64,000 bases of DNA from Phosphitispora fastidiosa (lineage in GTDB: Bacteria; Bacillota; Thermincolia; Thermincolales; UBA2595). Position 1 is the first letter of the stretch; every line of letters begins with the position of its first letter. The translations under genes and the position numbers were made by a program. This document shows positions 47,423-48,542 of the stretch, one piece after another. The stretch is from positions 1 through 64,000 of the forward strand of contig NZ_JAHHUL010000017.1 of the NCBI RefSeq assembly GCF_019008365.1, written 5' to 3'. A model generated the notes under the pieces. That model made no database searches. It was not told the DNA's origin and worked only from the letters and a program-made list of their open reading frames with translations.

Positions 47423-47456
47423 CTCCTGACTCCTGACTCCTGACTCCTGACTCCTA
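47423..47456. repeat. CTCCTGA heptamer repeat at the 3' end of the binding-protein gene
   Basis: Four perfect copies of CTCCTGA in a row, then CTCCTA which includes the stop codon of the lipoprotein gene. Related, degenerate heptamers (CTGACTCCTAAATCCTGACT) lie at the same place in copy B, near 61158-61185. Confidence 0.85.
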
Positions 47457-48542
47457 TTTAATAACCGGCCGCAGTCCTTCTTCTCTCAGGGCTTTATCAA
47501 GGAGCGTATGCTGTACGGTACCGATACCGGGAACAGCAATGGTTCTGCCTTCCAGGTCAGCCAAGGTTTTAATCTTGCCGTCGCTCTTTACCACCAGTCC
47601 TGAACCTTCGTTGTTGGCTCCTGCCACTACCTCAATGGGAATATTGTCATTTATTCTCTTCAGAGTTGCCGGAGCACCGCCAATATAAGCAATATCTACA
47701 TCAGCGGCCTTAAAGGCCTCCATTACGGCAACACCATTGGCAAACATCTTGGTTTCCAGGTTCTGCCCGGTAATCAGACCGACCTGTTCATAGTACCCTT
47801 CCTTCTCAGCAACAAACATAGCCAGTTGATGCAGGTCAGCTGACAGGTATCCCAGACGAAGCGGGGCATCACCTTTGACGCCCGCAGGTTTCCAGCCGGC
47901 ATCCTGATCCAATTCACCGGAAACTTTTTTATTGACATCTTCCCGGAGGAATGAAGCAAAGAAATTTTCACTGTTTTCGTACCCGATGGTTTCCACCGAG
48001 TTTTTCAGCAGTTTTCCTTCTACCAGGCTGCTGTAGTACTCCATGAATTTGTCCTTGGCGGGATATTCAACATAAGTAATGTTTTCCAGGGATTTTTTAA
48101 CTACTTCCTCATCCTTCCCGGTGAAGGCAGAGGCATACTGCAAAACCTTATTCCGGTTTTCCGCATCATTTATAAACCTGATAGCTCTGATATGAGCCCA
48201 GGTAACAGCTTCAACCGTTTGTTCATCTTTAAAGCTGTCACTTACAGCCAAAACACAGCACGGGTGTCCCGGCCATACTTCCCGGGAGGTAAACAGGTAT
48301 TTACCGTCACCGTTGTTTACAGCAGTACTGTTAAAGGGCTCCCAGGCGATGAAACCGTCGATTTCCCCAGCTTTTAACTGTTCCAGCATATTCGGCGGGG
48401 ATGTTTGCGTCAGGTATACGATTCTTTCCAGGTCCTGATTCCCGCTGGCCTCGTTGGCTTGTTGCCCGGTCTTACCGGAGCATCCAAAGAAAACCACCGC
48501 GGAGAACATAATTGTCAAAACTGCTGCCAATAACCTTTTCAC
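47454..48542 (-). CDS. circularly permuted SsuA/NrtA-type substrate-binding lipoprotein (copy A)
   Basis: 362 residues with a lipoprotein signal ending at Cys21. Residues ~40-220 carry what is normally the second half of an SsuA/NrtA-type protein (TSPPNMLEQLKAGEIDGFIA, WEPFNSTAV, HPCCVLAVS). Residues ~227-362 carry what is normally the first half (LRLGYLSADLHQLAMFVAEK, GVAVMEAFKAADVDIAYIGG, LADLEGRTIAVPGIGTVQHT) and stop at GLRPVIK, just where the ordinary protein would continue into the TSPP segment. Nothing seems lost, so this is a circular permutation. It should bind the imported substrate for the adjacent permease and ATPase. Confidence 0.88.
   Translation of the reverse strand: MKRLLAAVLTIMFSAVVFFGCSGKTGQQANEASGNQDLERIVYLTQTSPPNMLEQLKAGEIDGFIAWEPFNSTAVNNGDGKYLFTSREVWPGHPCCVLAVSDSFKDEQTVEAVTWAHIRAIRFINDAENRNKVLQYASAFTGKDEEVVKKSLENITYVEYPAKDKFMEYYSSLVEGKLLKNSVETIGYENSENFFASFLREDVNKKVSGELDQDAGWKPAGVKGDAPLRLGYLSADLHQLAMFVAEKEGYYEQVGLITGQNLETKMFANGVAVMEAFKAADVDIAYIGGAPATLKRINDNIPIEVVAGANNEGSGLVVKSDGKIKTLADLEGRTIAVPGIGTVQHTLLDKALREEGLRPVIK

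Follow-up and report, generated by a model that had tools for sequence, protein, structure and literature searches.

The window, by which we mean the whole stretch of 64,000 nucleotides from Phosphitispora fastidiosa, carries on its minus strand a gene for a predicted substrate-binding lipoprotein (SBP), followed by the genes of an ABC permease and an ATPase and preceded by a set of corrinoid methyltransferase genes (Table 1). The open reading frame that a first-pass annotation had proposed for this lipoprotein is present, complete with its hydrophobic signal and lipobox cysteine. From position 42277 to its end, the window consists of two homologous gene islands in tandem, which contain genes for URO-D/MtrH methyltransferase, permuted SBP, permease, ATPase and AhpD/CMD proteins, as well as for a QueG/RDH-like Fe-S protein, a CobW GTPase, a nitrate-reductase-gamma-like protein and a CCG Fe-S protein. 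This arrangement suggests an old duplication of the whole unit.

Table 1 Features of the locus and its surroundings (positions in the window; L010 is a canonical Thorarchaeota/Asgard relative)
Feature	Position	Strand	Remarks
Permuted SsuA/TauA/NrtA-type substrate-binding lipoprotein gene	47454..48542	minus	362 aa, GTG start at 48542; profile matches and profile-profile alignment
Lipoprotein signal peptide with lipobox Cys21	48480..48542	minus	Cys invariant in the 40-member alignment A3
Residues 40-208, canonical second half, now first	47919..48425	minus	L010 residues about 141-306; profile-profile alignment
HPCC motif, H93-C96	48255..48266	minus	C96 invariant, aligned with the ligand-contacting Asp205 of TauA
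Linker, residues 209-224, old C-terminus to old N-terminus	47871..47918	minus	Derived by subtraction
Residues 225-359, canonical first half, now last	47466..47870	minus	L010 residues about 6-140; profile-profile alignment
Perfect 7-bp tandem repeat CTCCTGA	47423..47455		4.7 copies; runs as far as the permuted SBP's stop codon
ABC permease (BPD_transp_1; SaoP/TauC/NtrB-like)	46474..47322	minus	Profile matches and neighbourhood
ABC ATPase (SaoA/NtrCD/TauB-like)	45722..46483	minus	Profile matches and neighbourhood
Corrinoid methyltransferase genes	48650..54552	minus	Upstream of the SBP gene, same strand
Two URO-D methyltransferases	48650..49705, 50822..51871	minus	
MtrH-type transferase	49725..50693	minus	
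RACo activator	51907..53850	minus	
B12-binding protein	53884..54552	minus	
Second permuted SBP paralogue	61185..62240	minus	73% identical over residues 3-362; own permease at 60300-61136, ATPase at 59581-60309
Two homologous gene islands in tandem	42277..64000	minus	

Order of the two halves

The homology of the protein to the SsuA/TauA/NrtA-type profile (NMT1_2, PF13379) is significant, with E-values of 1.4e-34 for NMT1_2 and 2.5e-34 for SsuA_fam, each match falling into two pieces. Against the curated Pfam and NCBIfam profiles only partial matches were obtained, none of them full-length, and the SsuA_fam score of 118.8 lies below the curated NCBIfam cut-off of 163.5. Residues 37-136 aligned with positions 149-250 of NMT1_2 (Pfam), residues 241-359 with positions 6-119 of NMT1 (Pfam), and residues 228-357 with positions 1-127 of TIGR01728 (NCBIfam). 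A sequence search of the PDB split likewise, into matches to nitrate-transporter C subunits at residues 32-136 and to TauA at residues 258-359. The swapped order of the halves, which the first-pass annotation had read from a few segments, is thus borne out by the out-of-order pieces of the Pfam and NCBIfam profiles, and every segment it quoted was found in the order it gave.

In BLASTP against five canonical Thorarchaeota proteins, two swapped HSPs were obtained in all five cases, one taking query residues of about 217-357 to the canonical first half (E 1e-28 to 1e-31), and one taking residues of about 46-200 to the canonical second half (E down to 5e-19); from 500 shuffled copies of the protein, no match to the same five proteins was returned. 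The profile-profile comparison by hhalign of 40 permuted proteins (A3) with 22 canonical ones (A5) placed the swapped blocks at canonical positions 11-142 (E 3.5e-40) and 145-306 (E 1.5e-35), which abut at 142/145, so that almost nothing has been lost at the joint. With the halves restored to canonical order, hhalign returned a single collinear alignment (E 1.9e-76); the de-permuted alignment has 294 columns and 35% identity, and leaves over no more than the residues VIK at the new C-terminus. Four alternative rotation points all scored lower, the closest of them only slightly. Both halves are homologous to one reference and stand in the reverse of the order that defines canonical SsuA/TauA/NrtA-type SBPs, and the joint shows hardly any loss or duplication.

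The AlphaFold2 models of the mature permuted protein (pLDDT 92.6, pTM 0.88) and of a canonical Thorarchaeota relative taken as control (pLDDT 95.2, pTM 0.90) have matching helices and strands, in rotated order. Foldseek against the PDB aligned the control to SsuA, TauA, NrtA and CmpA with TM-scores of 0.75-0.86 and E-values down to about 1e-20, and returned 1,385 matches for it at E up to 0.001, as against 14 for the permuted model. None of these 14 was SsuA, TauA or NrtA, and no match of the permuted model was full-length, with a TM(q) of at most 0.40 among the matches listed. Since Foldseek alignments follow the sequence order of the chain, this contrast is what a permutation predicts. The two-lobe clamp fold would probably be preserved, and the solute would be captured as usual.

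Distribution and origin of the permuted order

Homologues of 46-89% identity that are collinear over essentially the whole protein occur in the archaeon JdFR-19, in Thermincola MAGs and in a further MAG of the Bacillota. Across dozens of independent genomes, which belong to Bacillota and to one archaeal phylum, the permuted order persists at identities as low as 32-35%. In the phylum of the window it occurs in 13 of 399 sampled genomes, plus one fragment, a count that includes a genome (G003) whose broken copy spans the junction. This copy lies at a contig edge (G003:C31, L021/L066 3-975) and is split between two frames, one encoding a 56-residue N-terminal piece and the other most of the protein. 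The phylum of JdFR-19 has the permuted order in 29 of 394 genomes, besides which one fragment and one canonical protein were seen. Related proteins are present in 54 of the 228 Thorarchaeota/Asgard genomes, a number that includes a 130-aa fragment of unassignable order (G1008); most of these matches span one of the two blocks, none of the 54 is full-length collinear with the permuted SBP, and the proteins examined at full length have the canonical order.

Fifteen positions are invariant across the 40 permuted proteins, namely C1, I41, W47, E48, P49, H73, P74, C76, G250, G268, A270, P271, P318, G321 and Q324 (in mature numbering, to which 20 is added for positions in the full-length protein). 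In the linker of about 16 residues that connects the old ends, a Trp and a Pro are conserved in alignments of 14 and 18 members. The first-pass annotation had named an assembly error joining two partial genes as a way in which its reading could fail. To such an error, or to a recent local rearrangement with the same effect, the tandem repeat overlapping the gene end and the broken relative at a contig edge could be taken to point; however, the order is collinear over residues 1-362 in independently assembled genomes from two domains, it recurs in the second paralogue of the window, and a single conserved frame runs through the linker Trp and Pro and the lipobox. We therefore assign this explanation next to no probability.

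Two maximum-likelihood trees were built on de-permuted alignments. Both require one change of order, with support of 92/83 and 91/93 for the permuted group, and in both this group adjoins canonical Asgard proteins, with the permuted proteins of Bacillota forming a supported subgroup (99/97 and 98/97) among otherwise archaeal branches. The trees favour a single derived origin, sister to the canonical Asgard proteins, with a bootstrap support of 91-92%, which is good though short of the maximum. The nesting of the Bacillota subgroup among archaeal branches makes an archaeal origin with transfer to Bacillota the simplest reading.

Should the permuted order instead be ancestral, with canonical SsuA and NrtA derived from it, the earlier interpretation would be turned around, and the presence of permuted members in both archaea and bacteria does indicate that the arrangement is not recent. 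This reversal, which the first-pass annotation had also foreseen, does not hold up: one order is common to all the canonical outgroups (SsuA, TauA, NrtA/CmpA, 3UN6 of S. aureus, and archaeal and bacterial relatives), and the permuted proteins are one group beside the Asgard canonical proteins, which leaves it extremely improbable. Repeated origins of the order within the permuted clade, or a reversion, are somewhat easier to entertain, as the bootstrap for monophyly is 91-92% rather than 100 and the remaining 8-9% of trees require more than one change. They are nevertheless unlikely, given that the breakpoint and the junction align in all members, including the deepest (L111 and L112), and that the best trees require no more than a single change.

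The usual route to circular permutation, in which an in-frame tandem duplicate is afterwards trimmed at its two ends, fits this case. Here, one in-frame tandem duplication of a canonical gene would have been followed by loss of the front of the first copy, with its signal peptide kept, and of the back of the second; no tandem-duplicate intermediate of this route was found. The natural circular permutation put forward in the first-pass annotation is supported by the profile-profile comparison, the conservation across genomes, the rotated secondary structure, the opposite behaviour in PDB matching, and the trees. As far as can be judged from sequence, the protein is a permuted derivative and no canonical member of the SsuA/TauA/NrtA-type family, and we are highly confident that it is the predicted lipid-anchored SBP of an ABC importer, formed by natural circular permutation of a protein of this type (type II, NMT1_2).

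Lipid anchor, binding site and probable role

The location of the new termini differs from the one first suggested, which was between the two lobes. With a TauA numbering offset of 21, for which G61, T132 and D205 serve as reference points in the alignments, they map to TauA residues of about 148-151, between a helix and the following strand and inside domain II, which spans residues 105-201 in TauA (PMC6906117). Canonical SsuA has both termini in domain I (PMC3839906), an arrangement that the permuted SBP does not share, and a break inside lobe II would therefore shift the lipid anchor from lobe I to lobe II. By this mapping, the membrane tether would be lobe II rather than lobe I, which, if true, might change how the clamp is presented to the permease.

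In TauA, Gly61, Gly79 and Thr132 hold the sulfonate, and Asp205 holds the amine (PMC6906117). The first three have conserved equivalents in the permuted SBP (G270, G288 and T342), and the position of Asp205 is taken by the invariant Cys96 of the HPCC motif. The S. aureus SBP of PDB entry 3UN6, a canonical relative, likewise carries a CC pair where the HPCC motif lies, and the title of this structure mentions zinc, which hints that the Cys pair may bind a metal or a thiophilic ligand.

The adjoining permease and ATPase belong to the same nitrate/taurine/sulfonate transporter family. Among named transporter models, SaoX, SaoP and SaoA gave the best or near-best profile matches, far below their curated cut-offs; SaoX of the selenocysteine-assisted SAO system (NF040735), at 66.7 bits against a cut-off of 300, was rejected as an assignment. 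Of the 27 loci examined, 20 clearly have the genes for SBP, permease and ATPase in this order, and a further 3 have them so in part. Most likely the permuted SBP is a working importer SBP, whose ligand would be imported by the adjacent permease and ATPase. One could also speculate that, instead of serving an importer, it is a sensor or an enzyme derived from an SBP, as the NMT1 fold also occurs in enzymes (Thi5 and DszB, for example) and some permuted members are without a lipobox or an adjacent permease and ATPase (L108-L110; L122, L123, L055, L056). With permease and ATPase directly after the gene here and in most loci, and with a lipoprotein signal present, we consider this very unlikely. 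The proteins without a recognised lipobox (L108-L110) come from three genomes that also carry mcrA, and in the two of these whose neighbourhoods were read (L122 and L123) no permease or ATPase lies next door, so that these members may have another role.

As to what a working importer SBP would bind, the operon lies beside URO-D, MtrH-type, B12-binding, RACo-type and AhpD/CMD genes in the window, in several other Bacillota and in one archaeon (L119). The ligand in Phosphitispora fastidiosa could, judging from this genome context, be a methylated compound that is demethylated by the neighbouring corrinoid system, a possibility that we rate somewhat below even. The three URO-D proteins examined have His-x-Cys...Cys motifs, which, by the rule that this type fits S or Se substrates rather than O (PMC10418091), point to S/Se rather than O substrates. 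That the imported compound is methylated and probably of the soft-atom kind is a guess from context, and a doubtful one.

Several permuted members lie beside other enzymes (Lar_N/flavoprotein, AllG/CoA-ligase and radical SAM loci), and the family thus need not share one ligand. Two such operons (L128 and L054) adjoin genes for a Lar_N (lactate-racemase-like) protein and a protein of the pyridine-nucleotide-disulphide oxidoreductase family, with a methyltransferase and a regulator gene also nearby. The archaeal neighbours are mostly housekeeping-looking genes and uninformative on function. We considered mcrA as a host marker and rejected it: its presence in 7 of 24 archaeal genomes with a permuted SBP indicates that the family is not tied to methanogenesis. 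The combined picture of a widespread subclass with one archaeal origin and transfer to Bacillota, in which the lobe II anchor alters clamp presentation and the invariant HPCC cysteine of the pocket marks a soft, corrinoid-linked ligand (methylated S, Se or metalloid), is put forward tentatively, and we think it rather improbable that all of its parts hold together.

Relation to known binding proteins and gene clusters

The first-pass annotation knew of no described permuted member of this transporter family, and we likewise found no description of a permuted SsuA/TauA/NrtA-type SBP in the open-access literature; permuted SBPs are known in other classes (PMC4990184, PMC2395249). A single fixed topology is assumed for SBPs of the SsuA/NrtA class. 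The permuted clade forms a naturally rearranged branch, which profile libraries match only in part, splitting or mis-scoring it. The clade, which probably has one origin and for which extant canonical sister proteins and conserved transporter partners are available, can be considered a natural experiment on whether the tether site and chain order affect SBP function, and on the way in which circular permutations reach fixation.

With SsuA, TauA, NrtA and CmpA (class II) the permuted SBP shares homology of both halves, the same secondary-structure elements, the positions of TauA G61, G79 and T132, and a permease and ATPase next to it; it differs from them in its swapped halves, in the shift of both termini from lobe I to lobe II, and in C96 in place of Asp205. 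Its closest canonical relative is the Asgard/Thorarchaeota NMT1-like protein (L009-L013, L165-L168), at about 43% identity over the first-half block and with HPCC, DLHQLA-like and GxAPAxxKRxN motifs in common, whereas the order of that protein is canonical and its N-terminus, in those inspected, looks like a membrane anchor with no lipobox.

Among the precedents in other classes, TpMglB-2 (Tp0684), by which Treponema pallidum binds glucose ('Type Ic / Cluster Bc'), resembles the present protein in being a lipid-anchored SBP that is naturally permuted and kept in a clade; its binding and closure have been demonstrated by experiment (PMC4990184). TpMglB-2 has the type I fold (cluster B), with N-lobe strands moved and an extra hinge crossing, and represents an unrelated event in another SBP class (PMC4990184). 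Homology of the permuted SBP to MglB-like type I (cluster B) proteins did not reach significance (Peripla_BP_4 at E 0.022, below the cut-off), and its significant Pfam and PDB matches are to NMT1/SsuA/NrtA-type proteins. Structure comparison with CPSARST has revealed a circular permutation among type II SBP folds, between OpuAC of B. subtilis and ProX, ModA and CysB (PMC2395249). OpuAC (5NXX, 2B4L) is the top Foldseek match of the permuted model among the matches listed, at a TM-score of only 0.40, so that the two need not represent the same permutation. The OpuAC, ProX, ModA and CysB pairs are below 24% identity (PMC2395249), and OpuAC is of the glycine betaine family.

The genomic setting has the layout of corrinoid demethylation systems such as those of Mto demethoxylation and resembles the type 1 mlp clusters; in both kinds, methyltransferases, corrinoid protein and reductive activator are grouped as they are here (PMC8630106, PMC8359953, PMC10418091), and the MtrH-type transferase is common to the Mto system and the island of the window (PMC8630106, PMC8359953). 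The Mto papers report MFS transporters (PMC8630106, PMC8359953), and a text search of the mlp paper (PMC10418091) found no ABC transporter or binding protein. The island of the window differs from these clusters in holding an ABC importer with a permuted SBP, which marks an importer of this kind tied to corrinoid methyltransferase islands, whereas import in the Mto system is ascribed to MFS carriers.
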